Assembly: GCA_025964675.1 (NCBI GenBank)
Contig: JAOPYI010000041.1
Location: 1 to 32,720, forward strand
Length of the DNA stretch: 32,720 nt
Direction of reading: 5' to 3'
Source: Sphaerisporangium sp.
Lineage (GTDB): Bacteria > Actinomycetota > Actinomycetes > Streptosporangiales > Streptosporangiaceae
Shown: piece after piece, positions 3,689 through 18,515 of the stretch
How the letters are laid out: every line of letters starts with the position of its first letter
Numbering within the stretch: the stretch's first letter is position 1
Made by a program: the position numbers and the translations under genes
The notes under the pieces: generated by a model
Told to the model about the DNA's origin: nothing
The model's database searches: none
What the model saw: the letters and a program-made list of their open reading frames with translations, nothing else

Positions 3689-3877
3689 CGGTCCTGTACC
3701 CGTTGACAAGGGTTGCCCGACGTATCCCGTTCCCCAACATCGCGTTATGGTCCGCGACACCACGATGTTGAGCATGGAAGCCGCCCGTGGGACGAGCAAG
3801 GATGGACGTACGCGGGTGGCCTTGCCTGACGCCGCGACCGCGGCAACGGCCATGAGATCACGTGAGGTAGGGCCAGG

Positions 3878-4624
3878 ATGGCATCCAGGATCCAAGCGCT
3901 GCTTTTCGACCTCGACGGCACCTTGGTCGACCACGACACGGCCGCGGGGGCCGCGGTGGCCGAAGCGCTCCAAGGCACTCCCGACCTTCCGGACCTCGAC
4001 CAGGAGCACATCCGACGGCGATGGGCCGAGCTGGAGCAGCATGCCATGGAGCGCTACCTCGCGGGCGAGCTCACCTTCACCGGGCAGCGCCGCCTCCGCA
4101 GCGTCTCCCTCGCCGCCGAGCTGGGCCTCGGCGCCTGGGACGACGCCAAGGCCGACACCTGGTTCGCCGAATATCTCCGTCATTACGAGTCGGCGTGGCG
4201 GGCCTATCCCGACGCGCAGCCCACCCTCGACGCGCTGGCCGACCAGCATCCGCACCTGCGGCTGGGAGTTCTGACCAACGGTGACGCGGAGCAGCAGCGC
4301 CGCAAGCTCCACGAGGTCGGGCTCGCCACCGTCCTTTCCGAGGTGATCGTCTCCAGTGAGGTCAGCACCGCCAAACCCGACCCATTGATCTTCGAACACG
4401 CCTGCGACCTCCTCGGCCTCGATCCGGACCAGATCGCCTACGTCGGAGACAGACTTCACACAGACGCGGCGGCCGCCGCGAAGGCAGGAATGCACGGCAT
4501 CTGGCTGAACCGCACCGGCGATCCCACGCCCTCAGAACTGCCCACCATCCAAACCCTCCACGACATCCCCGCACTACTGACCAGCCTCAACGGAACCGCC
4601 TCAAGCCTTGGCAATGAGCTGTGA
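3878..4624 (+). CDS. HAD-superfamily hydrolase (subfamily IA)
   Basis: A 248-residue HAD phosphatase. Motif I is DLDGT with nucleophile Asp11 and Asp13; motif II is LTNGD near 157-161; the motif III lysine lies in TAKPDPLIFE; motif IV is YVGDRLHTD. The helical cap between motifs I and II marks subfamily IA (phosphoglycolate phosphatase/haloacid dehalogenase-like). The substrate cannot be deduced. GAGGTAGGG a few bases upstream is a good ribosome site for the ATG at 3878. The final ~15 residues are not part of the fold. The gene is single, with gaps of about 190-200 bp on both sides. Confidence 0.93.
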   Translation: MASRIQALLFDLDGTLVDHDTAAGAAVAEALQGTPDLPDLDQEHIRRRWAELEQHAMERYLAGELTFTGQRRLRSVSLAAELGLGAWDDAKADTWFAEYLRHYESAWRAYPDAQPTLDALADQHPHLRLGVLTNGDAEQQRRKLHEVGLATVLSEVIVSSEVSTAKPDPLIFEHACDLLGLDPDQIAYVGDRLHTDAAAAAKAGMHGIWLNRTGDPTPSELPTIQTLHDIPALLTSLNGTASSLGNEL

Positions 4625-5233: not shown

Positions 5234-5331
5234 CAGGGTCGTTCAGTGCGCAGGTCAATGAAGATTCCGGCGGTTCAGATCACTTCGACGTACTGACATC
5301 ATCGGATCGCCGATGCAATCGAGGAGGACCT

Positions 5332-5922
5332 ATGGGCAGAGTAATCCTGGAAATGACCATGTCGCTGGACGGCTTCATCGCGGCGCCGAATGTCGGCGTG
5401 GACCAACCCCTGGGTGAGGACGGTGAGCGCCTGCACGGCTGGCTCGGCATCGACGGCAGCCCGGTAAGCGAGATCGACCGCGAGATCTCCGCCGAGATGT
5501 TCGCGGAGACGGGCGCGTTCATCCTCGGCAGACGGACCTTCGACGGCGGTGAAGGCCCGTGGGGAGACGACGGCGCCTTCGGCATGCCCTGCTTCGTACT
5601 CACCAGCCGTGCCCGGGAGAAGCTGGTCAAGGGCCCCACAACCTTCACCTTCGTCACCGACGGCGTCGAAAGCGCCCTCAAGCAGGCCAGGGCGGTAGCG
5701 GGTGACAAGGACGTCGTCGTGATGGGCGGGGCGGAGGTCGCCCAGCAGTATCTTGGGGCCGGGCTCGTCGACGAGGTGCGCATCCACCTGGTGCCGATGC
5801 TGCTCGGCGCGGGCACCCGGCTCTTCGACGGAAGCCGTGTCGAGCTGGAGCGGACCAGGCTGGTCGAGTCGCCAGCCGCCACCCACCTGACCTTTCGGAT
5901 CGCAGGGTCCGCGATTTCGTGA
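5332..5922 (+). CDS. Dihydrofolate-reductase-fold protein (RibD C-terminal domain family)
   Basis: A 196-residue protein of the RibD-C/DHFR-like family. It opens with ILEMTMSLDGFIA, has FILGRRTFDGG near 62-72, VVVMGGAEVAQQYL near 134-147, VDEVRIHLVPMLLGAG near 151-166, and ends with a short strand as usual. Such stand-alone proteins probably bind NADPH and reduce an unknown small molecule; this does not look like the folate enzyme FolA. GGAGG lies 6 bases upstream of the ATG. An inverted repeat CATCGG/CCGATG (5300-5305, 5310-5315) sits just before the ribosome site and could be an operator or a leader hairpin. Confidence 0.91.
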   Translation: MGRVILEMTMSLDGFIAAPNVGVDQPLGEDGERLHGWLGIDGSPVSEIDREISAEMFAETGAFILGRRTFDGGEGPWGDDGAFGMPCFVLTSRAREKLVKGPTTFTFVTDGVESALKQARAVAGDKDVVVMGGAEVAQQYLGAGLVDEVRIHLVPMLLGAGTRLFDGSRVELERTRLVESPAATHLTFRIAGSAIS

Positions 5923-6025
5923 GCAGTGCTCGATGCAGGCTCGTGATCACTCAGATCTAGCCACCGCGTGACCATAGGCACGAACCCCACCCGCAACACT
6001 TCAGATAAAGATCTTCAGTGGAGCC

Positions 6026-6637
6026 CTAGCCGGCGTGCGGGCAGGGGGACGGACCGAGCAGCCTGGTGGCCAGGTCGCGAAGGCAGACCGCCAGGCGCTC
6101 CGGCTCGCCCCGCCGCAGCAGGCCCATGACAAGTTCGGTGTGCAGCGACCCGAGCACGATGTGGCCGAGGAGCTCGGCGTCCAGCTCGGGTCGTGCCTCG
6201 GCGATGAGCCCCGCGACATGGCCGTGCCAGAACACGTAGACCGGGCTGGTGTGGCGGCTCTCCGTCGAGTGCCTCTGGGTGGCGATGGCGTGCTCGTTGG
6301 CGGCCATCAGGCCCACATTGCGGGTAGTGAGATCTACCACGGCCTCCAGGAAGGCGATCAGCCGAGTCTCGGGGGGTGCGCCGGGGCCCAGAGGCGGCGG
6401 GCCGCTTGCGACGGCCTCGTGCAGGGCGTTCGCGCGCTCCTCCATCAGGGCTCGCATGAGGCCCATGCGGTTGCCGAAACGATGGAACACCGTGCCCTTG
6501 CCGACCCCCGCGGCGGCCGCGACCCGCTCGACCGAGACGTGGTCGGGTCCGTGCTCGGCCAGCAGTGCCTCGGCCGCACGCAGGATCGCACGACGGTTGC
6601 GTGCGGCGTCGGCGCGTTCCTGGCGCTGCTCGGCCAT
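6026..6637 (-). CDS. TetR-family transcriptional repressor
   Basis: A 203-residue TetR regulator. The helix-turn-helix is at about 27-60: ILRAAEALLAEHG, VSVERVAAAAGVGKGTVFHRF. The C-terminal ligand domain is all-helical. It is divergent from an oxidoreductase gene 123 bp away, and two operator-like sites lie between them, so it very probably represses that gene and itself. Repressors in this arrangement often respond to quinones or electrophiles, but the ligand here is not known. The ATG at 6637 matches the usual domain start; the same frame stays open upstream through the operator region, which is unlikely to be coding. Confidence 0.93.
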   Translation of the reverse strand: MAEQRQERADAARNRRAILRAAEALLAEHGPDHVSVERVAAAAGVGKGTVFHRFGNRMGLMRALMEERANALHEAVASGPPPLGPGAPPETRLIAFLEAVVDLTTRNVGLMAANEHAIATQRHSTESRHTSPVYVFWHGHVAGLIAEARPELDAELLGHIVLGSLHTELVMGLLRRGEPERLAVCLRDLATRLLGPSPCPHAG

Positions 6638-6676
6638 CGGCCACCCTCATGTGAAACGGATTGAGTATGGACAAAC

Positions 6677-6691
6677 TTGACCGCTGGTCCA
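6677..6691. promoter_or_regulatory. TetR operator-like site 1
   Basis: TTGACCGCTGGTCCA, an imperfect 15-bp palindrome centred on 6684. It lies in a longer match AACTTGACCGnnGGTCCA shared with site 2. It is flanked by the inverted repeat TATGGAC (6666-6672) and GTCCATA (6687-6693). It is nearer the tetR gene, so it probably controls that promoter. Confidence 0.65.
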
Positions 6692-6712
6692 TATCGTACT
6701 CTCCATACGAAC

Positions 6713-6727
6713 TTGACCGACGGTCCA
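6713..6727. promoter_or_regulatory. TetR operator-like site 2
   Basis: TTGACCGACGGTCCA, nearly perfectly palindromic (core GACCG-A-CGGTC) and centred on 6720, 36 bp from site 1. It lies 34 bp before the oxidoreductase start codon, a suitable place to block that promoter. Confidence 0.7.
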
Positions 6728-6760
6728 CTTTATGGATGCCGCGACGAGAGGAATCCAACC

Positions 6761-7630
6761 ATGCGCGCTGTGGTCATGCACAAGACGGGCGGCCCGGAGG
6801 TTCTGGGCTTGGAAGAGATTCCCACCCCGGTGCCCGGTCCGGGCGAGCTGCTCCTGCGAACCGAGGCCGTCGGTATCCCGTTCGGCGACCTCGGGATGAG
6901 GGCCGGCGCCTACCTTCCCGTGATGCCGGCCTCCTTGCCCACCGTGCCCGGGAGCGAGGCCGCCGGGACGGTCATGGAGGTCGGCGAGGGAGTGGACACG
7001 GGGCTGGCGGGATCCCGGGTCGCCGTCATGATGATGACCGGCGTCGGCACCTACGCCGAGTACGTAGCCGTGCCCGTGGAGATGAGCACACCCATCCCGG
7101 AGGGCGTGAGCGCGGAGGACGCGGTAGCGGTGGCGGTGCAGGGAGCCACCGCGCTCACCCTGCTCCGCACGGCGGGCGCGAAGGTGAAGAGAGAACGTGC
7201 CCGGGAACTGGGGGCCGACATCGTCGTGGACCACCGCGATCCCTCCTGGCCCGGCCAGGTGCGGGATGCACTCCAGGGTGCCACGCTCGACATCGTCTTC
7301 GAATCCGTCGCCGGCGCGAGCGCCCGGGAGCTGCTGGACCTGATGACGCCTGGCACCGGGCGCATGCTCTACTACGGCCGCCTCGGCGGCGAGCCCGCCG
7401 CCGTCACCCCGGACGACCTGCTCTACCGCGGCCTGACCCTCATCGGCTGTGGCGGCCTGGCCGCCTGGGCCAAGCGGGTCGCCGCCGCCCGTACCGACGT
7501 TCTCTGCCTGCTTGCCGAGGGCCGTCTGCATCCTTTGGTGGACAGCGTCCTCCCGCTCGCCGACGCCGCGACCGCGCACCGGCGCATCGAGAACCGCGAG
7601 ACCATGGGGAAGATCGTTCTCACCCCTTGA
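6761..7630 (+). CDS. Quinone oxidoreductase-like (zinc-type ADH family) protein with internal deletion
   Basis: A 289-residue member of the medium-chain dehydrogenase family. Residues 1-115 are a complete GroES-like domain (MRAVVMHKTGGPEVLGLEEI onward). Residues 145-289 match the second half of the Rossmann domain (ARELGADIVVDHRD, DIVFESVAG, GRMLYYGRLGG, MGKIVLTP). Between them, the segment that should hold strand 1 and the glycine motif is absent: TLLRTAGAKV (133-142) runs straight into KRERARELGAD. About 35 residues are missing compared with the intact homologue at 22871, which has VHGGASGIGTFAIQLAK there. The frame is kept. It probably cannot bind NADPH normally, so it is either an inactive relic or a protein with a changed role. 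GAGAGGAA is the ribosome site. Confidence 0.85.
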   Translation: MRAVVMHKTGGPEVLGLEEIPTPVPGPGELLLRTEAVGIPFGDLGMRAGAYLPVMPASLPTVPGSEAAGTVMEVGEGVDTGLAGSRVAVMMMTGVGTYAEYVAVPVEMSTPIPEGVSAEDAVAVAVQGATALTLLRTAGAKVKRERARELGADIVVDHRDPSWPGQVRDALQGATLDIVFESVAGASARELLDLMTPGTGRMLYYGRLGGEPAAVTPDDLLYRGLTLIGCGGLAAWAKRVAAARTDVLCLLAEGRLHPLVDSVLPLADAATAHRRIENRETMGKIVLTP

Positions 7631-7743
7631 TCTAGCGACACACCCACGTGGCGACCCTCCAAGTGCAGGACGCGAGTGAGCGCATGGGCGCCGCTCTCTG
7701 GGGCGATGACGGATAACTGCAACCCTGATGCATTGAGAGACAA

Positions 7744-7778
7744 AAAGCCCCTCTCGCGAAATTCACGAGAGGGGCTTT
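7744..7778 (-). terminator. Strong intrinsic terminator downstream of tRNA-Ser(GCU)
   Basis: Perfect 13-bp inverted repeat AAAGCCCCTCTCG/CGAGAGGGGCTTT around 9 bases. On the minus strand the stem runs into TTTTTG, a classic intrinsic terminator for the tRNA gene just upstream in that direction. Because the stem is symmetrical it may also stop plus-strand transcripts from the oxidoreductase gene. Confidence 0.9.
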
Positions 7779-7784
7779 GAGGTG

Positions 7785-7874
7785 CGGAGGCTCGGGGATT
7801 TGAACCCCGGATGGGCTGTAGACCCAAACCGCATTAGCAGTGCGGCGCCATAGACCTGACTAGGCGAAGCCTCC
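7785..7874 (-). tRNA. tRNA-Ser (anticodon GCU)
   Basis: A 90-nt class II tRNA on the minus strand. Acceptor GGAGGCT/AGCCTCC (7868-7874, 7786-7792) with discriminator G. Anticodon stem CCGCA/TGCGG encloses CTGCTAA, giving GCU for serine AGC/AGU codons. The long variable arm TTTGGGTCTACAGCCCA is typical of tRNA-Ser. CCA is not encoded. Confidence 0.97.
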
Positions 7875-8057
7875 TGATAGCCCGATCGGCTCGCTCAGAG
7901 CCCGACTGGCTCAGCACAGAGTACCGGCCTTGATGCTAGGCGGCAAAGTGGATTCGCCGTGGCGGCCAAACATGTCGCGCAAGGAACGCTTCGTCCTGGC
8001 CGTCGAGCAGCGAAGGTCTTGGTCGTCCCTTGGTTCAGGGTCTGGCAGAGAGGTTTC

Positions 8058-8096
8058 CCACACTCTGTATCCACAGGCTGTGGACACAGAGTGTGG
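8058..8096. repeat. 39-bp near-perfect palindrome with DnaA-box-like cores
   Basis: Two 19-bp arms (8058-8076, 8078-8096) around a single base, with one mismatch (A8069 against C8085). The inner parts read GTATCCACA and TGTGGACAC, each one base away from DnaA-box consensus forms in opposite orientation. It lies 38 bp beyond the yceI-like stop codon and could be a terminator for that gene, though no T-tract follows. Otherwise it could be a protein-binding site. Confidence 0.75.
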
Positions 8097-8133
8097 ACTA
8101 CGGGATCAGGCGCACCGCATGGCCTCTGAAGGG

Positions 8134-8697
8134 TCAGGCGCGGCGCGTGGCCTCGCCCTCGACCTCGATCTTGATCTTCTTGCCGACCAGGACGCCGCCG
8201 GTCTCCAGGGCGACGTTCCAGGTCAGGCCGAACTCCTCGCGCTCGATCTCCGTCTCAAGGGAGAAGCCGAAAAGCTCCTGGCCCCACGGGTTGTTGCCGG
8301 CGCCGCCGTACTCGACCTTGAGCGTGACTTCCTTGGTGACGTCACGGATCGTGAGGTCACCGGCGACCACGAGCTCGTCGCCAGAGTGGCTGAGGACGCG
8401 GGTGCTGCGGAAGCTGATCTCCGGGAACTTCTCCACCGACAGGAAGTCTTCGCTGCGCAGGTGGGTGTCACGGTCAGCGCTGCCCGTGTCGATGCTGGCG
8501 GTGTGGATGGTGAGCTCGGCAGAGGACTCGAGCGGGTTCTCGGCGATCGTGACGCTTCCGGAGAACTCTCCGAACCGGCCGCGGACCTTGCTCACCATCA
8601 TGTGCTTGGCGCTGAAGCCGATGCGGGTGTGCGCGACATCCAGGTCAAAGGTGCCGGGCTCGGGGATCGTGATGCCTTCCCAGGCGCGAGTGCTCAT
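8134..8697 (-). CDS. YceI-family protein
   Basis: A 187-residue YceI lipocalin-like protein. It begins GTFDLDVAHTRIGFSAKHMM, continues through VRGRFGEFSGSVTI, the SADRDTHLRSEDFLSVEKFPEI block and LTIRDVTKEVTL, and ends in VGKKIKIEVEGEA. The family forms a beta-barrel that binds polyprenoid or amphiphilic lipids. There is no signal peptide, so this is the cytoplasmic form common in actinomycetes. The ATG at 8697 has GGGAGA about 8 bases upstream and matches the usual family start. It is divergent from a MarR gene 100 bp away, a pairing that suggests MarR control. Confidence 0.93.
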   Translation of the reverse strand: MSTRAWEGITIPEPGTFDLDVAHTRIGFSAKHMMVSKVRGRFGEFSGSVTIAENPLESSAELTIHTASIDTGSADRDTHLRSEDFLSVEKFPEISFRSTRVLSHSGDELVVAGDLTIRDVTKEVTLKVEYGGAGNNPWGQELFGFSLETEIEREEFGLTWNVALETGGVLVGKKIKIEVEGEATRRA

Positions 8698-8757
8698 GTT
8701 CCGTCTCCCGTGAATGATGTAGTTGCCATGCGGATGTCTTCTGCAACAGATGTCTAC

Positions 8758-8777
8758 ACGAGGAATATTCCACTCGT
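8758..8777. promoter_or_regulatory. Candidate MarR operator between yceI-like and marR genes
   Basis: ACGAG (8758-8762) and CTCGT (8773-8777) bracket the perfect palindrome GGAATATTCC (8762-8771); the two centres differ by one base. It is AT-rich against the surroundings and lies in the shared promoter region, as MarR sites do. Confidence 0.5.
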
Positions 8778-8797
8778 CAACTAACGTCATCTAGACT

Positions 8798-9278
8798 ATG
8801 AGTGTGACTCCATCTGACGACCCCAGGCTCACTGCGATAGGACTGCTCAGCGAGGTCCACGCGGGTCTGGCGGCCAAGCTGAACCCCGTTTTCGCGGAGG
8901 CAGGGCTGTCCGATGTCGACTTCGAGACCCTCATCCGCCTGGCCCGCTCCCCCGCGCGCAGGCTGCGCATGAGCGACCTGGCGGCGCAGACGTCGCTGTC
9001 CACTAGCGGGGTCACGCGGGTCGTCGACAGGCTGGAGCGCGAGGGCCTGGTCGAGCGCGTGGCCTGCCCCAGCGACCGGCGCGCGTCCTACGCCACGTTG
9101 ACCGACGCCGGCCTTGCCCGGTTCGAGGCCGTCATCCCGAAGCATGTGGAAGACATCGAGAAGTGGTTCACGGGCCTGCTGAGCCCCGACGAGCTCGAGA
9201 CATTGCTGAGCGCCCTGCGCACCATCCGCGACGTCGTACGCCCCTGCGCCACGGCCGGCGCGATCGAGCCCGGCAAGG

Positions 9279-9298
<20 letters not shown>
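8798..9298 (+). CDS. MarR-family transcriptional regulator
   Basis: A 166-residue winged-helix MarR protein. The recognition region is RLRMSDLAAQTSLSTSGVTRVVDRLEREGLVER at about 50-82, followed by the wing DRRASYATLTDAGLARFE. MarR dimers usually repress a divergent gene and release on binding phenolic or oxidising ligands; here the target is probably the yceI-like gene. No ribosome site precedes ATG 8798, and an in-frame GTG lies at 8804, so the message may be leaderless. The gene ends inside the 3' end of the convergent acyl-CoA ligase, with a 20-bp overlap. Confidence 0.93.
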
Positions 9299-10874
<1,576 letters not shown>

Positions 10875-10947
10875 CAGTGCCACCTCCGATCTCCGAGTCT
10901 GACCCCGCGCCGGGCCCGAGACAAGCGCTAGGTCACGAGCGAAGAGG

Positions 10948-11445
10948 TCATGACCGCGGCTCGACGACCACCAGATCGCCCCGCAGCTTCGCCATCGCCC
11001 GCGACACGGTGCTCTTCACGGTGCCGATGCTGATCCCGAGGGCCTTGGCGATCTCCGGCTCGCTCATGTCCTCGTAGTAGCGCAGCACGATCGCCGTACG
11101 CTGCCGGGCGGGCAGCCGGTTGATCGCCTCCTCCAGCAGCTCGTGGATCTCCCCGGGGCTGGGGAGGTCCCTGACCGGCGTCTCCGGCAGCTCCTCCGAG
11201 GGGTACTCCTCGAGCTTCCTGCGCCGCCACCACGAGATGTTGATGTTGACCATGGCACGGCGCACGTAACCGTCGAGCGAGGCCCGGTCGTTGACGCGGT
11301 CCCAGGCGAGGTAGGTCTTGGCCAGGGCGGCCTGAAGCAGATCTTCGGCGTCGGCGGGCTGGCCGGTCAGTTGATAGGCCACGCGCAACAGTGCCGGGCC
11401 GCGAGAAGCCACGTACTCGCGGAACTCCTCCTCTTTACCGCTCAT
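10948..11445 (-). CDS. SigE-family ECF RNA polymerase sigma factor (TIGR02983 type)
   Basis: A 165-residue group 4 sigma factor. Region 2 is FREYVASRGPALLRVAYQLTGQPADAEDLLQ at about 8-38, with DGYVRRAMVNINISWWRRRK completing it. Region 4 is at 105-155 (LPARQRTAIVLRYYEDMSEPEIAKALGISIGTVKSTVSRAMAKLR). This matches the actinomycete SigE-like family. No anti-sigma factor gene is adjacent on either side, so control is not evident. It is divergent from a two-gene unit encoding a cysteine-rich protein and a MauE-like membrane protein, 279 bp away, which is a possible target. ATG 11445 was chosen because the open frame upstream shows no domain. Confidence 0.94.
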   Translation of the reverse strand: MSGKEEEFREYVASRGPALLRVAYQLTGQPADAEDLLQAALAKTYLAWDRVNDRASLDGYVRRAMVNINISWWRRRKLEEYPSEELPETPVRDLPSPGEIHELLEEAINRLPARQRTAIVLRYYEDMSEPEIAKALGISIGTVKSTVSRAMAKLRGDLVVVEPRS

Positions 11446-11724
11446 GCGATCACCGGTGCCGTGACGAAGATTGGTTCGGATCTCGTGGTCAGAATCGCAG
11501 CCGGACGCCATAAGGCGGCTGAACCTCAGTCCAGGTTTCGCCCCGCCCAAAGCAAAGATCGTTACAGTCGGGCAGCACGCTGGGGCGGTGACTAGTTCAT
11601 CCTGGAGTGGGTAATTTGCTACCGGCAGCGAAAGATTCGCCCCGCAGGAGACGGCGTCGGCGACGGATCGTGTGACGCTAGCGGACGACCGAGGAAACTC
11701 GCGGCGGCGACCTGGGAGGGGCCG

Positions 11725-12666
11725 ATGGGAGTTGAGCGCCGCTCCACGTTGGCGTCCGCCGCACTCGGCCGAAGCGCCGTCCCGCCGCAGGCAGCGGTGG
11801 AGGAACGTCCGGTACTCAGCGGCGTCACCGGCGAGATCCTCGACATCAGCCCGCACCTCGTCATCCTCGAGAACCCCGACGGGGTCGAGGAGCGCCTGGT
11901 CATCGCTCCATGGGCCACGGCCTGGCACGGGCAGCCCGCCGTTCCCGCCGACCTGCCCATAGGTGCCCACGTCACCATCCGCGCCCGGCAGTCAGGACGC
12001 GTGGCCGAGCGTCTGTGGGGCGACATCACCCGCGTCACCGGCGTGATCACCTCCCTCGGCACGGACCGCAGGGACCTCACGATCGAACTGCACTGCGGGC
12101 CCCACCGGGGCAAGCGCACGGTCGTGATCCCCTACGGCGCCTCGGGACGCATCCGGGTGCGGCATCCCCAGCTCGAACCGGGATACCTCTTCGACGCCAT
12201 CGGAACGCGGATGGCAGGCGTGACCTTCGCGCATCTCCCCGCGACCTCACAGCCCGCCTACCGGGCGACGGCCGTCCCGCCTCCCCCGCCCGCGTACGGC
12301 GGCGTGCAGTCGAGGATCTCCGGGGCCGCGTCCTGGTCGGACGCCTTCGACGACGGGGAGGCCGGGGCGGCATACCCGATGTTGGAACGTGCCGACTCCG
12401 GCTGCGAGGACGCCGGGGTATCGTGCACCGGTCTTCCCTATCTCGCGCTCGGGTCGATGCTCTACGTCGGCAACGTGTGCGAAGGCCGTGCCTCGGTGCT
12501 GCCGATCGTCGCCTGCGGGTGCATGGCGGGACGGTTCTGCGACCGGTGCGTGCAATGCGGCACCTCACCACGGGGACGGATCGTCGAGTTGTCACCGGTC
12601 TCCTTCGTCGAGCTCGGCGGAGACCTCACCAAGGGATGCTTCAACGCCCGCGTCGGATTGGGGTGA
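11725..12666 (+). CDS. Cysteine-rich protein with MauA-like (methylamine dehydrogenase light-chain-like) C-terminal domain
   Basis: A 313-residue protein with no close match that I recognise. Residues 30-165 are beta-rich and look internally duplicated: VTGEI...LVIAP at 34-62 and VTGVI...VVIPY at 104-137. A Pro-rich linker follows (184-190). Residues 220-313 hold nine of its ten cysteines: C227, C234, C252, C264, C266, C272, C275, C278 and C305. The order (YVGNVC, CGCx5CxxCxxC, Cx4VGL at the end) resembles the disulfide-rich light chain of methylamine dehydrogenase (PF02975). The two tryptophans that form the TTQ cofactor there are not evident. No signal peptide is visible, unlike MauA. It has GGGAGGGG as ribosome site and is translationally coupled to a MauE-like gene. 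The MauA link rests on alignment by eye. Confidence 0.6.
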   Translation: MGVERRSTLASAALGRSAVPPQAAVEERPVLSGVTGEILDISPHLVILENPDGVEERLVIAPWATAWHGQPAVPADLPIGAHVTIRARQSGRVAERLWGDITRVTGVITSLGTDRRDLTIELHCGPHRGKRTVVIPYGASGRIRVRHPQLEPGYLFDAIGTRMAGVTFAHLPATSQPAYRATAVPPPPPAYGGVQSRISGAASWSDAFDDGEAGAAYPMLERADSGCEDAGVSCTGLPYLALGSMLYVGNVCEGRASVLPIVACGCMAGRFCDRCVQCGTSPRGRIVELSPVSFVELGGDLTKGCFNARVGLG

Positions 12667-13505
12667 CCGTGGAGGTCGCAACACTCGCCACCGCCGCACT
12701 CGTGCTGCTGGTACTGCTCCTGCTCCTCGGAGGCGTGGCCAAGTTCGCCACCGCCGGGACGGACGCCGCGCCCGGCGGGCTCTCCCGCCTGGGACCGGGC
12801 GTCCTGGTCCCCGAACGTTGGCGCAAACCCGCGATGATCTTCTGTGCCATGGTGGAGGTCGTGCTGGCGGCAGGACTGCTCTTCACCCGCCACCCGGTGC
12901 CGAGATGGGCGACGATCGCGTTCTTCTCCGTGGCCACCTACGTCCTCTGGGAGCTGCGCCGGCGGCGGCCGGACGTGGGCTGCGGCTGCTTCGGTGAGGC
13001 GAGCGGCTCGCCGGTGGGCCTCCGCTCGATCGGTCGGGCCGTCGCCCTGGCCGGGATGGCGGTGTTCGTCACGCTGGTCCCGGTGTCGGGGGCGGACCTG
13101 CTGTCCGGCTTCTCGTCCGGTCTGGTGATCGCGCTCGGCGCCGGCCTCGCGCTCATTGCCTTCCTCTCCCCGGAGACGGAGGAGGCGATCTCGCGCGTCA
13201 GATATCGCGCGCCGTGTGAGCAGCGGCCCGCACCGGCTCCCAAGGCCCTCTCCCGCCTGCGGTCGAGCGTCGAGTGGCGTTCCCACCAGAACCTTCTGGT
13301 GTCCGGCGAGCCGTCGGACACGTGGCGCGAGCTGTGCTGGCGGTTCTTCGTCTACCCCGGGCGCAGCACCGCGGGGACCGAGGCGGACGTGGTCTTCGCG
13401 GTGTACCTCAGCGGGAGGCGGGCGGCCGTACGGGTCGCCGTAGTGGACGCCGAGGGGTCCGGCCGGACTCTGCGGGAATCTATCGGCGTATCCGCTGCAC
13501 GCTAG
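12663..13505 (+). CDS. MauE/DoxX-like redox-associated membrane protein
   Basis: A 280-residue protein with hydrophobic helices at about 4-24, 56-75, 81-97, 123-141 and 148-168. The cytosolic C-terminus (170-280) does not belong to any family I recognise. Before the fourth helix is the motif VGCGCFG (C107-x-C109), a hallmark of the MauE/DoxX redox-associated group. MauE is needed for disulfide formation in the methylamine dehydrogenase light chain. The GTG start at 12663 overlaps the upstream stop codon (GTGA), so the pair is translationally coupled; another in-frame GTG is at 12669. No thioredoxin-like MauD gene is adjacent. The stop codon lies inside a CTAGAAAG-type repeat shared with the next locus. 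Confidence 0.8.
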   Translation: MTVEVATLATAALVLLVLLLLLGGVAKFATAGTDAAPGGLSRLGPGVLVPERWRKPAMIFCAMVEVVLAAGLLFTRHPVPRWATIAFFSVATYVLWELRRRRPDVGCGCFGEASGSPVGLRSIGRAVALAGMAVFVTLVPVSGADLLSGFSSGLVIALGAGLALIAFLSPETEEAISRVRYRAPCEQRPAPAPKALSRLRSSVEWRSHQNLLVSGEPSDTWRELCWRFFVYPGRSTAGTEADVVFAVYLSGRRAAVRVAVVDAEGSGRTLRESIGVSAAR

Positions 13506-13520
13506 AAAGCCCTAGAAAAA
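13502..13520 (+). repeat. CTAGARAG repeat, copy 1
   Basis: CTAGAAAGCCCTAGAAAAA contains the stop codon of the MauE-like gene. It matches the family consensus CTAGARAGCCGTAGARAG, in which TAGARAG occurs twice with a 10-bp period. Confidence 0.65.
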
Positions 13521-13551
13521 GCAATCAAAGCTGCCCGGCACCGCGAATACA

Positions 13552-13570
13552 ACTCTCTACGGCTCTCTAG
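13552..13570 (-). repeat. CTAGARAG repeat, copy 2 (inverted)
   Basis: On the minus strand this reads CTAGAGAGCCGTAGAGAGT. It is the inverted partner of copy 3, and together they form a long hairpin. Confidence 0.7.
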
Positions 13571-13596
13571 CTTCCCCTCTAGAAAGCCGTAGAGAG
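13553..13596. terminator. Long hairpin between convergent genes, built from two inverted repeats
   Basis: Arms 13553-13564 and 13585-13596 pair perfectly over 12 bp. After one mismatch, TCTAG/CTAGA adds 5 bp around an 8-base loop. It lies between the convergent MauE-like and AAA ATPase genes and could act as a bidirectional terminator, although no T-tract follows. Confidence 0.6.
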
Positions 13597-13597
13597 G
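13579..13597 (+). repeat. CTAGARAG repeat, copy 3
   Basis: CTAGAAAGCCGTAGAGAGG; it differs from inverted copy 2 at one position over the first 18 bases. It lies 37 bp from the stop codon of the AAA ATPase gene. Confidence 0.7.
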
Positions 13598-13633
13598 TCA
13601 ATGGGAGCGCGGGATCGTCGCGCTCGTATCTGC

Positions 13634-14815
13634 CTACAGCGGCTGCGCCCGGAGGAACCTGCCGAAGTGGGGCACCGTGAAGGCGATCAGGCCGCGCTCG
13701 GCACTGAAGATGAGTCCTTTCTTGATGAGGCTGTCGCGGGCCGGAGACAGGCTGGACGGCTTGCGCCCGAGCAGGTCGGCCACGTCGGCGGTCGGCACGG
13801 GCTCGTCGCCGACGGAGGCCATGGCGTGCATGTAATCGCGCTCGGCGGGGGTGGCGCGCTCGTAGCGGCTTCCGAAGAACCCGACCGCGAGCTCCTCCTC
13901 GGCCTCGGGGGCCGCGACCCTGATGTCATCGGCCGTGATGGGACTGCCTGGCGCGAGATCCCAGGCGACCTTGCCATAGGCCTGGACGAAATAGGGGTAA
14001 CCGTCGGCCGCTTCGTACAGCGCGTCGAGCGCCTCGGAGGTGAACTGCACCTGCTCCCGCTCGGCGGGGGCGATCAGGGCGAGGTCGGCGGCCTCTCGGT
14101 CGAGCCGGTCGATGCGGGCATAACGGAACAGGCGCTCGGAATAGCTCTTGCTGGCGCTCAGCACGCCGGGGAGGTGAGGCAGGCCGGCGCCTACGACGAT
14201 GAGCGGGCCGCCGCTCTGGGACAGCTCGTGGCAGGCGGCGCACAGGGCGGAGATATCGGGCGCCTGCACGTCCTGCATCTCGTCGATGAACAGGGCGATG
14301 CCGACACCCAGGTCGGTCGCAACCGAGGCGGCGTCGACGAAAAGCTCAGTGAGGTCGATCTCGAGGTCACCGGAGTCGGCCCGGCCCCGGCTCGCCGGGA
14401 CGTCGATCGCCGGCGACCAGTGTGTCGTGCCCTTGGCCGCTGACGGGTCGCGCATGGCGAAGGCCTTGAGCACGCCGAGGAACTCCTCGATGCGCTCGGG
14501 CGCGCGGTGGCGGGGGGCCAGCTCGCGGATCGCCATGTGGAGCGCGGCGGCGACCGGACGGCGGATCGACTGCTCGGGACGAGCCTCGATCTTGCCGGTG
14601 CCCCACAGCCGTTGCATGGCCATCGACTTGAAGGTGTTGAGCAGCACGGTCTTACCGACACCGCGCAGCCCGGTGAGGACCATGCTCCGCTCGGGCCGGC
14701 CACGGGCCACCCGCTCCAGCACAACCTCGAACTGCTGCAGCTCACGATCACGCCCGGCCAGCTCTGGTGGGCGCTGCCCCGCACCGGGGGCATAGGGATT
14801 GCGCACGGGGTCCAC
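13634..14815 (-). CDS. AAA-type ATPase with C-terminal winged helix (ORC1/Cdc6-like architecture)
   Basis: A 393-residue cytosolic ATPase. Walker A is GLRGVGKT at 49-56 and Walker B IALFIDEMQ at 173-181. Sensor 1 probably lies in PLIVVGAGLPHLPG, and an arginine-rich segment (SERLFRYARIDRLDR) follows. The C-terminal ~80 residues (ATPAERDYMHAMASVG, VADLLGRKPSSLSPARDSLIKKGLI) form a winged helix that probably binds DNA. The architecture resembles archaeal Orc1/Cdc6 and STAND-like ATPases; the cellular role is unknown. The GTG at 14815 begins VDPVRNPYAPGAG; a second GTG three codons on (VRNPYAP) is also plausible. A repeat family (CTAGARAG) lies just beyond both ends of the gene, suggesting self-binding or a unit inherited together. 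Confidence 0.85.
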   Translation of the reverse strand: MDPVRNPYAPGAGQRPPELAGRDRELQQFEVVLERVARGRPERSMVLTGLRGVGKTVLLNTFKSMAMQRLWGTGKIEARPEQSIRRPVAAALHMAIRELAPRHRAPERIEEFLGVLKAFAMRDPSAAKGTTHWSPAIDVPASRGRADSGDLEIDLTELFVDAASVATDLGVGIALFIDEMQDVQAPDISALCAACHELSQSGGPLIVVGAGLPHLPGVLSASKSYSERLFRYARIDRLDREAADLALIAPAEREQVQFTSEALDALYEAADGYPYFVQAYGKVAWDLAPGSPITADDIRVAAPEAEEELAVGFFGSRYERATPAERDYMHAMASVGDEPVPTADVADLLGRKPSSLSPARDSLIKKGLIFSAERGLIAFTVPHFGRFLRAQPL

Positions 14816-15134
14816 GCTCTCGGACTTTATGGCCGGATATAGCGGCCGTCCTAGATTTCCGTAGAAAGGGCTACGGCGTGTCGTCGATCGGCGGGGGACG
14901 CGAGCCTGCCCCGGCGGCTGCGGCACCGGTGGCGAGAGCAACGCCATGGCACACCACCCCTCACCTGGACCTCTCGGCCCGAACCCCTGTTCGACCCGAT
15001 GGCCAAGACTGTAGCGCCCCCTCGAACAGGTGCGCGAGGACTTTCGAGTAAAACCTGGGACAGAGATCTCGCATACCCCTGTCCCACCGACACAGACGGA
15101 CCGACGTCACAATTGCGTCACGAGCGGAGTCAGG
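14816..15134. other. Gene-free stretch between divergent AAA ATPase and M15 peptidase genes
   Basis: About 320 bases. The ATPase side holds repeat copy 4 and the hairpin CCGTAG/CTACGG (14859-14864, 14871-14876). The rest contains no frame with a recognisable domain. The promoters of both flanking genes should lie here, but I cannot place them with confidence. Confidence 0.5.
14851..14869 (+). repeat. CTAGARAG repeat, copy 4 (upstream of the AAA ATPase)
   Basis: CTAGATTTCCGTAGAAAGG matches copy 3 at 15 of 19 positions and keeps the 10-bp spacing of TAGA. It lies 36 bp upstream of the ATPase start codon, in its promoter region. It overlaps the hairpin CCGTAG-aaaggg-CTACGG (14859-14876). Confidence 0.6.
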
Positions 15135-15938
15135 ATGGCCTTACCCTGGCGTATGTCCGAGATACGAAAGCTTCGCCACCTGGGCGTTCTCGCCCTGGCT
15201 TGCGTGTCGGCCACCGTCACCGCATGCGGTGGCACCGGTGTCGTCGCAGAACCGGCGCCGTCCTCGGTGACGTCGCCATCCGGCCAAGGCTCCACCTCGC
15301 CGTCCGGCGAAGCCTCCTTTATGCCGTCCGCTTCCTCATCGGAGACGCCGAGCGCCGCTCCGTCGCAGCCACCGGCCTTCAGGTCGAAGATCTCCGACGT
15401 CACGGCCGGCCAGCTCAACCATTCGTGGCGGCCCGGCTGCCCGGTCTCGCCGGACAGCCTGCGGAAGGTCACGATGACGTACTGGGGCTTCGACAAGAAG
15501 GCCCACACCGGGGAGCTGATCGTCAACCGAGGTGTCACCGGCGACGTGGTCGCGCAGTTCAAGCAGCTGTACGAGTGGCGGTTCCCGATCGCCCGCATGG
15601 TGCCGATCGACGTCTACAAGGGGAGCGACTTCGATTCCATCGAGGCCGACAACACATCTGCGTTCAACTGCCGCAGGACCACGGGCTCGAGTAGCTGGTC
15701 CAAGCATTCGTACGGCAGGGCCGTCGACATCAACCCCCGGGAGAACCCCTGGGTCGAGCCCGACGGTTCCGTCGCCCACGACAACGCCAGGCAGTTCGCC
15801 ACGCGTCCGCTGCACAAGCCCGGTGTCATCAACCCGGACGACCGCGTGGTCCGGCTGTTCGAGAAGTACGGCTGGCAGTGGGGCGGCTACTTCAACGGCG
15901 CCAAGGACTACCAGCACTTCGCCAAGGGCGGCGGGTAG
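15135..15938 (+). CDS. M15-family D-alanyl-D-alanine carboxypeptidase-like lipoprotein
   Basis: A 267-residue exported protein. A basic n-region and hydrophobic core (LGVLALACVSA) end in the lipobox VTAC, so it should be lipid-anchored outside the membrane. A Ser/Pro/Thr-rich linker of about 50 residues follows. The catalytic domain has the M15 zinc-binding pattern: SKHSYGRAVDINP (His and Asp ligands) and DYQHF near the C-terminus (third ligand His). Such enzymes trim the peptide stems of peptidoglycan. ATG 15135 has GGAG five bases upstream; ATG 15153 would give a shorter n-region and is also possible. It faces the LacI gene convergently. Confidence 0.9.
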   Translation: MALPWRMSEIRKLRHLGVLALACVSATVTACGGTGVVAEPAPSSVTSPSGQGSTSPSGEASFMPSASSSETPSAAPSQPPAFRSKISDVTAGQLNHSWRPGCPVSPDSLRKVTMTYWGFDKKAHTGELIVNRGVTGDVVAQFKQLYEWRFPIARMVPIDVYKGSDFDSIEADNTSAFNCRRTTGSSSWSKHSYGRAVDINPRENPWVEPDGSVAHDNARQFATRPLHKPGVINPDDRVVRLFEKYGWQWGGYFNGAKDYQHFAKGGG

Positions 15939-15956
15939 GACCTGCGTACTCGAGGA

Positions 15957-15975
15957 GGCCGGCGCCTTGCCGGCC
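15957..15975 (+). terminator. Hairpin after the M15 peptidase gene
   Basis: GGCCGGC and GCCGGCC form a perfect 7-bp GC stem around 5 bases, 18 bp after the stop codon. It lies between convergent genes and has no T-tract. Confidence 0.5.
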
Positions 15976-16023
15976 GGCACCCCGTGGCGGCCTGCTGGTA
16001 GTCCCTGGCCGTGAGCGGCCCTT

Positions 16024-17049
16024 CTATACAAGGTCCGATGATGCGCCGGTCAGGTCGCTGACGCTTTCGCGGAGCACCACCTCGCCCGGTACGGGCTCCA
16101 CGCGCGGCACGTCCTCATGCGACAGGGCGAGCTCCAGTGCCAGCGCCCCCATACGGGCGAGCGGCAGCCGTACCGTGGTCAACGCGGGGACCACGTCGCG
16201 CAGCGGGGGGATGTCTTCGAATCCGGCCAACGACAGGTCGCGCGGCACCTGGACGCCTCGCTCCCGGAAGGCGGCGAGAGCTCCCACCGCCATCGCGTCG
16301 GTGACCGCGAACACGCACGTCACGTCGGTGTTCATGTCGAGCAGCTCCAGCGCCGAGTCGTGGCCGCCATTCCGGTCCAAGCGGCTGTGCAGGAGCACCG
16401 GCGCCGGGAACCCGAGATCGGAGAGCCCGTCGAGGAATCCCGCCGTCCGCTCGACGGCGGTGAGCATCAGGACCGGGCCGGCGAGCACGGCGAATCTCTG
16501 GTGCCCCCGACCCGCCAGGGCGCGAGCAAGCTGATAGGCGCCCTCGTGGTTCAGCGGGGACACGGTGTCGACGCCGAAAGCCGGCTCCCCGATGATGGCC
16601 ACCTGGCCCCCGGTGGCGCGGTAAACGTCCAGCTCGGCGCGGAACCGCCGGAGCATGACGTCGTCCGCGTCCCGGGAGCCGGCGATCAGGACCACCCGGG
16701 TGCGCTGAGCGGTCAGCGAGGCGACGTGGGCGATCTCGCGCTCGGGATCGCGGCGCGTGGTGCCGATCGTCACCACCATGTCGTGCAGGTCAGCGGCGCG
16801 CATGACCCCGTCGGCGATCGCGGCGAAGTACGGGTCGGTCAGGTCCTGGACGATCAGGCCGACCACGTTGCTCATCCCTCGTGCCAGGGTCTGAGCGGTC
16901 GAGTCCACCCGGTACCTCAGCTTGGCCGCAGCCGACTCCACCCTTGTCCGTGTGAGCGCGCCTACCTGGCGGGTGCTGCCGTTGAGTACCCGCGACGCCG
17001 TCGCCAGGGACACCCCTGCTTCCTTGGCGACCGCTTCCAGCGTCACCAT
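16024..17049 (-). CDS. LacI-family transcriptional regulator
   Basis: A 341-residue LacI/GalR regulator of normal length. The N-terminal helix-turn-helix with hinge is TLEAVAKEAGVSLATASRVLNGS at 3-25 and onward to about 60. The periplasmic-binding-protein-like effector domain follows (NVVGLIVQDLTDPYFAAIADGV, then VTDAMAVGALAAFRERGVQVPRDLSLAGFEDI). No sugar transporter or catabolic gene is adjacent, so the effector and targets are unknown. GGGGAGG lies 5 bases before ATG 17049. The frame stays open upstream but shows no domain. Confidence 0.94.
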   Translation of the reverse strand: MVTLEAVAKEAGVSLATASRVLNGSTRQVGALTRTRVESAAAKLRYRVDSTAQTLARGMSNVVGLIVQDLTDPYFAAIADGVMRAADLHDMVVTIGTTRRDPEREIAHVASLTAQRTRVVLIAGSRDADDVMLRRFRAELDVYRATGGQVAIIGEPAFGVDTVSPLNHEGAYQLARALAGRGHQRFAVLAGPVLMLTAVERTAGFLDGLSDLGFPAPVLLHSRLDRNGGHDSALELLDMNTDVTCVFAVTDAMAVGALAAFRERGVQVPRDLSLAGFEDIPPLRDVVPALTTVRLPLARMGALALELALSHEDVPRVEPVPGEVVLRESVSDLTGASSDLV

Positions 17050-17188
17050 GGTCGTCCTCCCCACCTGCTCCTCTCCCATTGTGCGCTGGCCGCTGTCGAT
17101 CGGCGCGGCGGCGGGCCTGATGCGCGGCCTGACAGCTCGGGATGCCGCAGAAGCGGGTGGTGCCGGCCGCGCTGTAGCCTGAGCGGCC

Positions 17189-17506
17189 ATGGACGCCGAC
17201 ACCTGGGAGACCGTCGACCGGCTCGTAGCCTGGCTCGACGCCGAAAGCACACTGGCACCCGATGTCGAGCTGCTCTTGCGGTTGATGAAGGTCTCGGAAG
17301 AGACGGGTGAGGTCGCCCAAGCCGTCATCGGCGTGCTCGGGCAGAACCCTCGCAAGGGCTTCACCCATACCTGGGATGACGTCGACAGCGAGCTGTGCGA
17401 CGTCATCCTCACCGCCATGGTCGCCCTGAGAACACGGAACGCCGACGCGGCGAAGGTCCTCAACACGCGTCTGGCAGCGGTGGCAAGCCGGTCGCGCGCA
17501 AGCTGA
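17189..17506 (+). CDS. MazG-like nucleotide pyrophosphohydrolase-family protein
   Basis: A 105-residue all-alpha protein of the MazG-like group, which hydrolyses nucleoside triphosphates to the monophosphate and pyrophosphate. The metal-binding pattern is present: LMKVSEETGEVAQAV (E-E-x-x-E) at about 33-47 and SELCDVILTAMVAL (E-x-x-D) at 69-82. One such domain per chain implies a dimer or tetramer. It is divergent from lacI with a 139-bp gap and precedes the Nudix-NYN gene on the same strand. Two neighbouring genes for nucleotide-cleaning folds may be functionally related. Confidence 0.88.
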   Translation: MDADTWETVDRLVAWLDAESTLAPDVELLLRLMKVSEETGEVAQAVIGVLGQNPRKGFTHTWDDVDSELCDVILTAMVALRTRNADAAKVLNTRLAAVASRSRAS

Positions 17507-17627
17507 ACACGGTCCCCCGAGAGATCACCGATGTGCCGCATCGGGATCCGCACAGCGAACTCTCAGGGCTTCGAGGGCTGGCGAGGCCAGCGGGCCTGCG
17601 CCAAGGCGGGTGAGGCAGGATAGAAAG

Positions 17628-18515
17628 ATGGCCGTTATGGACGGTAACGGGTGGGCGGTGTGCGGGCGGGGGCACCGGCACTGGGGGTTGCACGGGGCGT
17701 CGGGGCTGCTGGCCGTTCACTACGACGCCGAAGGCACGCCGCACGTTCTCATGCAGAAGCGGTCTTTGTGGAGCCATCACGGCGGCACCTGGGGTGTTCC
17801 AGGTGGAGCGCTCGACAGCCATGAGGACGCCGTCACGGGCGCGATGCGGGAGGCCCTCGAGGAGGCGGCCCTGCGGGGCGACGGCCTGCGTGTCCTCGGC
17901 GTCTACACCGACGACCACGGCGGCTGGTCGTTCCAGACCGTGATCGCGGAGGCGGACGCTCTCTTTCCCGCCTCACCGGCCAACAGCGAGAGCACCGAGA
18001 TGCGGTGGCTACCCGCTGACGAGGTGTCGGACGAGACGCTGCATCCGGGCTTCGCCGAGACCTGGCCGGAGATCAGGTCGACCCTTCCATCGTCCGTGGT
18101 CGTCCTCGACGCGGCCAACATCGTCGGCGCGCGGGCCGAGCACGGCTGGTGGCGCGACAGGGCCGGTGCGACGAAACGCCTGCTGGACGATGTCGAGAGC
18201 CTTGCAGAGCACGGCCTGCGCCCTCCGGAGGGGTTCCCCGCCCCGGAGAAGTGGTTCCCCAGGATCGTCATGATCGTCGAAGGTGCCGCCAGAGGGGTCC
18301 GCTCGGATGGGTCCGTGGCCGTGGTCGACGCGCCTGGCAGCGGGGACGACGCGATCGTGGAAACGGTCCGCGAGATCAGGCAGACAAGACCGTGGGAGCG
18401 GGTGCTGGTCGTGACCGCCGACCGGGAGCTGCGCCGTCGGGTCAAGGAGCTGGGCGCCGAGGTTGCCGGCCCGGGTTGGCTACTTGGGCAGCTGCGACCA
18501 AGGGGACGGGTGTAG
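17628..18515 (+). CDS. Nudix hydrolase fused to a NYN/PIN-like nuclease domain
   Basis: A 295-residue two-domain protein. Residues ~20-150 form a Nudix fold with the box GALDSHEDAVTGAMREALEEAAL; the usual Gly of REUXEEXGU is Ala. Residues ~155-290 resemble NYN/PIN-like RNases: VVVLDAANIVGA with acidic Asp, WWRDRAGATKRLLDDVESL, RIVMIVEGAARGV, GSGDDAIVETVREI and VVTADRELRRRVKELGA, which supply the acidic residues of the metal site. The fusion suggests a role in nucleotide or RNA end processing; the substrate is unknown. AGGA lies 7 bases before ATG 17628; a nearby in-frame GTG at 17610 is less likely. Confidence 0.85.
   Translation: MAVMDGNGWAVCGRGHRHWGLHGASGLLAVHYDAEGTPHVLMQKRSLWSHHGGTWGVPGGALDSHEDAVTGAMREALEEAALRGDGLRVLGVYTDDHGGWSFQTVIAEADALFPASPANSESTEMRWLPADEVSDETLHPGFAETWPEIRSTLPSSVVVLDAANIVGARAEHGWWRDRAGATKRLLDDVESLAEHGLRPPEGFPAPEKWFPRIVMIVEGAARGVRSDGSVAVVDAPGSGDDAIVETVREIRQTRPWERVLVVTADRELRRRVKELGAEVAGPGWLLGQLRPRGRV

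Follow-up and report, generated by a model that had tools for sequence, protein, structure and literature searches.

A near-obligate gene pair of Sphaerisporangium and its family joins a MauE-type membrane protein to a cysteine-rich partner with a double-psi beta-barrel-like domain

The window, which is the whole stretch of 32,720 nucleotides of Sphaerisporangium sp. DNA analysed here, contains a pair of coupled open reading frames (ORFs) on the forward strand, and this pair is the subject of the present study. ORF1 (11725..12666, +) starts with ATG behind a purine-rich stretch, GGGAGGGG, and encodes 313 aa, in which an OB-like N-terminal region is joined to a cysteine-rich domain resembling a double-psi beta-barrel (DPBB). 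ORF2 (12663..13505, +) starts with GTG and encodes a MauE-family membrane protein of 280 aa with a C-terminal extension. The stop of the former and the start of the latter overlap in GTGA (12663..12666, +), which couples the two genes. ORF1 has ten cysteines, nine of which lie within residues 227-305 in the pattern C264-G-C266-x5-C272-x2-C275-x2-C278, followed by C305-x4-VGL, and ORF2 carries a VGCGCFG motif. The ORF pair, its overlap, the ten cysteines with their spacing and the VGCGCFG motif had been described in an earlier sequence-only reading of this DNA, and all of them were confirmed from the sequence.

The distribution of the pair was investigated in 250 genomes of the GTDB family to which the window belongs, including its own genome, at a match threshold of E<=0.001. 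Of the 250 genomes, 238 matched ORF1 and 241 matched ORF2, and not one held ORF1 without ORF2. Neither gene was found in nine genomes; several of these assemblies are fragmented, yet G007 and G030 are listed as 99% complete. G007 has lost the pair while the genes for the neighbouring sigma factor and ATPase (see below) remain, and the 3-kb locus of G002, where the genes for AMP-ligase and ATPase are near neighbours, contains neither the pair nor the sigma gene. ORF2 occurs alone in three genomes, G153, G014 (contig ends at the gene) and G238. The last of these (locus L179, about 2991-4250) keeps its MauE gene behind an 80-aa open stretch that still matches ORF1 (E 5e-5), a natural loss of ORF1. 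Homologues of ORF1 and ORF2 are adjacent on the same strand in 74/74 loci (64 distinct ORF1 sequences), all of which were retrieved through an ORF1 match and among which the window is counted twice; because of this constancy the adjacency is taken as not due to chance. The gap between the two genes ranges from -154 to +175 in the other loci, depending on the start codons chosen. When 296 genomes of the class were searched with the ORF1 profile, 27 family genomes were matched and only two weak partial matches appeared elsewhere. Near-universal in the family sample and, save for these weak matches, unmatched elsewhere in the class sample, the pair belongs to the core gene set of this one lineage, and the coupling proposed from the sequence alone proves to be near-obligate.

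ORF2 belongs to the MauE family, as had been anticipated. Its residues 8-136 (12684..13070, +) match PF07291 with 44.4 bits against a curated cut-off of 27 (E 2.5e-11), and the family was matched by 26/26 ORF2 members tested (E<=0.1). No relative was found when viral contigs were searched with the MauE profile. The GCGCFG sequence (12978..12995, +), which contains the CxC of C107 and C109, lies in the loop after the third transmembrane helix; CxC is present in 64/64 ORF2 sequences, and CGC follows the third helix in all 64 as well as in 5/5 comparison MauE proteins. Since Paracoccus MauE has IDCGCF at the equivalent position, VGCGCFG is a feature of the MauE family. Average hydropathy reveals about five hydrophobic segments. 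The mean number of lysines plus arginines is 4.8 in loop 1 and 5.9 in the CxC loop, and the three stretches across the membrane average 0.3, 1.1 and 0.3; the two loops exceed this opposite side in 64/64 sequences. An equivalent layout of charges was observed in Paracoccus MauE and in four further MauE proteins described below. By the positive-inside rule applied to these counts, the CxC and the C-terminal domain of ORF2 are predicted to face the cytoplasm, with moderate support. The same rule would also place the CPVC thioredoxin-like domain of Paracoccus MauD (L140:5185-5787) in the cytoplasm; inspection by eye shows that the hydrophobic helix at its N-terminus is preceded by no positive charge and followed by R28/R36.

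The C-terminal extension of ORF2 (residues 168-262; 13164..13448, +) has C185, W221 and C225 invariant in 64/64 rows. Outside the family, its profile found one good match, in G843 (E 1.9e-11), and two marginal matches when 335 genomes of the class were searched; an earlier version, built before the rows of the cassette introduced below were included, found only the genome of the window and one marginal match in 346 genomes of the phylum.

The nature of the ORF1 C-terminal domain (residues 198-313, with nine cysteines; 12316..12663, +) was sought by profile comparison; ORF1 has no match in a general scan of Pfam or NCBIfam. A profile of 108 rows was compared by hhalign with a MauA profile of eight sequences from plasmid records and with a joint profile that combines actinobacterial domains of the RlpA and expansin types; column-permuted queries, from which gap-rich columns had been dropped before permuting, served as the null. 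The joint RlpA/expansin profile was matched with a score of 47.4 and 94.7%, and the RlpA-only profile with 92.2%, in both cases with 0/100 permutations as good. The controls behaved as follows: RlpA against expansin, the positive control, gave 98.1%, RlpA against MauA 3.7% and the ORF1 N-terminus against DPBB 0.65%. A preliminary comparison with small profiles and realignment on (RlpA 1.5%, MauA 0.1%) was not used for significance. The Pfam DPBB family PF03330 was touched by 2/31 ORF1 members at E<=1, the best having E 0.0064 and covering positions 3-81 of the 83-position profile. These computations show profile homology of the ORF1 C-terminus to DPBBs of the RlpA/expansin superfamily, of which it would be a divergent member.

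Whether the domain retains the aspartate of the DRGP/DCGP motif depends on the alignment, and for this reason a lytic or expansin-like activity is not assumed. Through the DPBB of the cassette, that aspartate pairs with residue 263, which is A in 58, E in 16, D in 11, G in 9, T in 7, S in 4, and Q and R in 1 row each (107/108 rows). By hhalign against RlpA it pairs with D273 instead, which is invariant in 108/108 rows; the alignment is uncertain here.

The sequence-only reading had seen in this domain a MauA-like fold devoid of the tryptophan tryptophylquinone (TTQ), a proposition for which the superficial spacing of the cysteines and the adjoining MauE gene speak. The profile similarity is absent, however: hhalign gave 0.19% against MauA, with 0.22% for the reversed ORF1 profile, 50/100 permuted queries were as good or better, and 0/31 ORF1 members matched PF02975 at E<=1, in addition to the strong match to DPBB. 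PF02975 was also unmatched in the whole genome, as it was in the 14 control genomes of that search, which limits what this result can tell. The MauA fold was rejected as a candidate, with next to no likelihood left to it, and because the domain is not MauA-like, and no valid alignment brings the two tryptophan positions together, the suggested loss of the TTQ tryptophans has no basis.

Weak PF03330 matches led to L136 and L137 and thereby to a three-gene cassette which turned out to be related to the pair. In L137, a 149-aa cysteine-rich DPBB protein without signal, a 198-aa protein with a typical twin-arginine translocation (Tat) signal and a MauE protein are encoded on one strand; the DPBB matches PF03330 with E 0.00044, below the cut-off, and the MauE matches PF07291 with E 1.5e-16. 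The gene order is identical in the four cassette loci, L137:1303-3145, L185:106-1944 (genome of L136), L187:5001-6812 and L217:6171-8257, of which L187 is from Nonomuraea gerenzanensis and L217 from G843, a genome of another family. The cassette DPBB matched the ORF1 C-terminus with 89.6% and RlpA/expansin with 96.5%, each with 0/50 permutations as good; with a single sequence as query the former value was 33%. Its match to MauA was 1.6%. The N-terminus of ORF1 in turn matched the Tat-signal protein (94.1% over 97 columns), and the cassette MauE matched ORF2 both in the MauE part (99.0%) and in the extension (94.1%). As both halves of ORF1 match separately, it corresponds, as far as these computations show, to the two soluble proteins of the cassette probably fused in the order OB-DPBB. 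N. gerenzanensis holds both the cassette and the ORF1/ORF2 pair. With the cassette DPBB as single query, the cassette was found in 1/296 class genomes, and G843 surfaced only in the later sample of 335, so the cassette looks rare. L186 matched the cassette DPBB (E 2.4e-4) with no cassette among its ORFs and was taken as spurious, and the weak matches of L101, L102 and L175 were left unused. A cytochrome P450-like ORF was seen by eye upstream of the cassette in L185.

The first part of ORF1 comprises an OB-like region (residues about 30-185; 11812..12279, +) preceded by the sequence RRSTLASAAL (residues 5-14; 11737..11766, +). In addition to the hhalign match above, AlphaFold2 (AF2) modelled residues 31-100 with a block-mean predicted local distance difference test (pLDDT) score of 64-87, and the best Foldseek matches were the OB folds of PAN N-domains at E 2.2e-3, with none at E<=0.001, which gives weak support. 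RRSTLASAAL is a twin-arginine-like motif with the spacing found in the cassette, where the OB proteins start with RRxxLxxAxL and carry a full Tat signal in 4/4 cases. RRxxLxxAxL occurs in 50/64 ORF1 sequences as against 0.37% of shuffled N-termini, and RR is present within 35 residues in 63/64. A hydrophobic core is missing. The longest uncharged run after the motif has a median of 8 and a maximum of 11 in ORF1 as compared with 21 in the four cassette OB proteins, and the best 15-mer hydropathy after RR has a median of 0.54 and a maximum of 1.29 in 63 ORF1 sequences as compared with 1.55-1.79 in the four cassette proteins; moreover, several ORF1 clades have charged residues directly after RR. 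ORF1 hence shows the twin-arginine motif of a Tat signal and lacks its hydrophobic h-region, and the absence of a signal peptide, as previously stated, was borne out by hydropathy. The RR start is an apparent remnant of a Tat signal that would have lost its hydrophobic core. Cytoplasmic nitrate reductase is a known case of a protein with a remnant Tat signal. In MauA, the twin-arginine motif and the hydrophobic core are both present in all four rows long enough to show them (L140, L141, L142, L145); the other four rows are too short.

These observations bear on the possibility that ORF1 is exported, either by a short Tat signal or by hitchhiking with some Tat protein, and acts outside as a disulfide-bonded, expansin/RlpA-like wall binder which MauE helps to fold before export. 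DPBB relatives are typically exported, and the frequency of the motif, the full Tat signal of the OB partner in all four cassettes and the paired losses of cysteines (see below) would be in keeping with such a role. Hitchhiker export, moreover, is described for PaoABC in an excerpt of PMC4273604. Set against this are the hydropathy values and short uncharged runs just given, together with the charges that follow RR in several clades, and we consider export unlikely.

The conservation of the nine cysteines was examined in the 108 C-terminal rows. Losses were counted as C227 1, C234 8, C252 4, C264 1, C266 38, C272 8, C275 2, C278 5 and C305 1; the cysteines are strongly conserved and fall short of full invariance, C266 above all. 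C234 and C272 are lost jointly in seven rows and each singly in one, while C252 and C278 are lost jointly in four and C278 alone in one. The losses were mapped on a tree built without the cysteine columns. C252 and C278 share two loss branches (out of two and three, respectively; 0.0005 under random placement), as do C234 and C272 (out of three and four; 0.004), and the other shared loss branches stem from the single rows L064 and L119. L064 keeps only C234, C252, C272 and C278. A pairing of C227 with C266 and a lone loss of C305, which appeared in a first table, were artefacts of rows cut at 135 aa and of the ambiguous alignment around C227. The disulfides C234-C272 and C252-C278 would be the best supported ones, and since the cysteines tend to be lost in pairs, disulfides are favoured over a metal site, with moderate support.

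A metal site, either zinc or an iron-sulfur cluster, with ORF2 supplying or exchanging electrons and no disulfides at all, is what the compact CGC-x5-CxxCxxC looks like, and the apparent cytoplasmic location of ORF1 would suit it. Such a site is nevertheless hard to reconcile with the loss of C234 together with C272 in 7/8 rows and of C252 together with C278 in 4/4, or with the absence of C266 from 38/108 rows, and scanning of Pfam and NCBIfam at E<=1 revealed no clear metal-protein family. We find a metal centre rather improbable.

Our tentative preference, held at a little less than an even chance, is that the pair constitutes a membrane-bound thiol-redox module in which ORF2 acts on the cysteines of the ORF1 DPBB at the cytoplasmic face of the membrane. 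ORF1, with its Tat signal cut down to the twin-arginine start, would most likely remain in the cytoplasm. ORF2, with about five helices and with the CxC and the C-terminal domain inside, would form or exchange the disulfides of the DPBB, presumably in physical contact with ORF1, and the electrons would probably be passed on to the membrane quinone pool. The barrel might in turn bind a ligand, of the cell wall or otherwise, or report the redox state. MauE is related to the wider DoxX group, and because of this kinship a quinone is suggested as the final acceptor; both the quinone and the direction of transfer are conjectural. The idea of a disulfide-rich client that depends on MauE, put forward in the sequence-only reading, is hence kept as an analogy of working and given up as homology to MauA.

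Several observations weigh against this proposal and are collected here. With regard to the fold, the expansin-only profile gave 5.3% with 3/100 permutations as good, which counts against a specific link to expansins, and no ORF1 member exceeds the Pfam DPBB cut-off (best 17.2 bits vs 28.8). PDB sequence searches with ORF1 and the profiles gave no DPBB and one chance-level match (E 1.6), and the AF2 model of the domain is poor (mean pLDDT about 39; 23 close rows), as is that of full ORF1, which is why the assignment of the fold rests on profile statistics. With regard to location, the topology of ORF2 is a count of charges and not an experiment, and RRxxLxxAxL is missing or altered in 14/64 ORF1 sequences. 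With regard to the disulfides, 36 pairs are possible and only C252/C278 passes a simple Bonferroni correction, while the sign test on independent pairs, with three and one pairs, has too few for significance. The pairing has exceptions (C272 lost alone in L060, C234 alone in L054, C275 with C278 in L119), and nine cysteines leave at least one unpaired. Furthermore, the bacterial cytosol generally does not stabilise proteins by disulfides, as stated in a part of PMC3177088.

A wider conjecture, possible but doubtful in our judgement, would make MauE proteins in general cytoplasmic-face disulfide enzymes for Tat clients, which they would oxidise or isomerise before export. MauA and the soluble proteins of the DPBB/Tat-OB cassette would then be exported clients, handed to the Tat translocase as folded, disulfide-bonded proteins, and the pair would be a derived version whose client stays inside: having kept the twin-arginine start without the hydrophobic core, ORF1 would have become an internal redox protein linked to the membrane.

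The neighbourhood of the pair was compared in 43 loci. A divergent ECF (extracytoplasmic function) sigma factor, as supported by the Pfam scan (the label SigE-family being that of the sequence-only reading), is encoded upstream (10948..11442, -), and its gene was found within the fetched flanks in 37/43 loci. The six loci without a match are five of Herbidospora (L047-L051), which keep the pair, and L059, whose contig starts just before ORF1. An AAA ATPase (PF13191; 13634..14947, -), convergent to ORF2, is present in 40/43 loci with 79-94% identity, a conservation exceeding that of the pair itself, and an M15-type D-alanyl-D-alanine carboxypeptidase-like protein (15030-15938) is a neighbour in 29/43. 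Among nine neighbour proteins (5280-18515), two of which match nothing, none matched the MauB, MauD or MauG families at E<=0.001, which agrees with the previously noted absence of these genes.

In the intergenic region between the sigma factor gene and ORF1, near relatives share a conserved block at 11490-11525, CAGAATCGCAGCC...GGCTGAACC, possibly the 5' region of the sigma gene itself; in more distant genera a different conserved block takes its place. As for a sigma promoter motif before ORF1, only conserved blocks were found, none identifying a sigma recognition site.

From this arrangement one might propose that ORF1 and ORF2 control the sigma factor as a redox sensor in the membrane, for which the presence of its gene in 37/43 loci and the block conserved between it and ORF1 could be cited. 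The five Herbidospora loci, where the pair is present and the fetched flank holds no match to the sigma factor, and G007, with the sigma gene and no pair, speak against it, and as the ATPase is a still commoner neighbour, gene order may simply be conserved. A sensor of this kind is highly improbable in our view. The suggested link of the pair to the sigma factor amounts to neighbourhood: the sigma factor is a conserved neighbour and not an obligate partner, and a functional link is unsupported because each has been kept without the other.

The pair is real and conserved, a putative two-gene redox module, and no earlier description of it was found among the papers listed; nor did these contain an ORF1-like protein, the three-gene cassette or a combination of MauE with DPBB. 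A role of MauE in the formation of the MauA disulfides appears as speculation only in the part of PMC7794033 consulted. As a unit near-universal in a large sample of its family couples MauE to one defined cysteine-rich protein, with the cassette as its kin, ORF1 and ORF2 offer a simple setting for testing if MauE forms disulfides and, if so, on which membrane face. ORF1, so far without match in Pfam or NCBIfam, gains a structural assignment. Since Tat exports folded proteins, the oxidation of its clients before export is a question of practical weight, and the interest of the system lies in its relation to the cassette and in the predicted action of MauE from the cytoplasmic side on Tat-type, cysteine-rich clients.

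Among known systems, candidate RiPP (ribosomally synthesised and post-translationally modified peptide) clusters of Streptomyces, in the same excerpt of PMC7794033, contain MauE without other mau genes and a predicted product with at least eight cysteines; unlike the pair, they have predicted peptide precursors, and their likeness to the cassette is one of description. RlpA and the bacterial expansins (PF03330) share with ORF1 the joint-profile similarity of 94.7%, a GxAxW start and a GRIxxLS-like strand-helix, while ORF1 differs in lying below the Pfam cut-off, in an extra cysteine loop, in having no signal peptide and in the possible loss of the DRGP/DCGP aspartate. MauA (PF02975) is likewise cysteine-rich, has MauE in its operon and a twin-arginine motif in its precursor, and differs from ORF1 in profile. 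The cassette differs from the pair of the window in having one gene for each protein (DPBB first, then OB, then MauE), in the full Tat signal on the OB protein and in a DPBB with more cysteines, and its MauE proteins (three aligned) are without C185 and C225. MauE of Paracoccus denitrificans (L140) resembles ORF2 in a MauE domain over the cut-off, in the position of CGCF, in the layout of loop charges and in a gene that adjoins a disulfide-rich client bearing, or once bearing, a twin-arginine motif; ORF2 departs from it by an additional domain, some 100 aa long, in which two cysteines are invariant, and by a client other than MauA.

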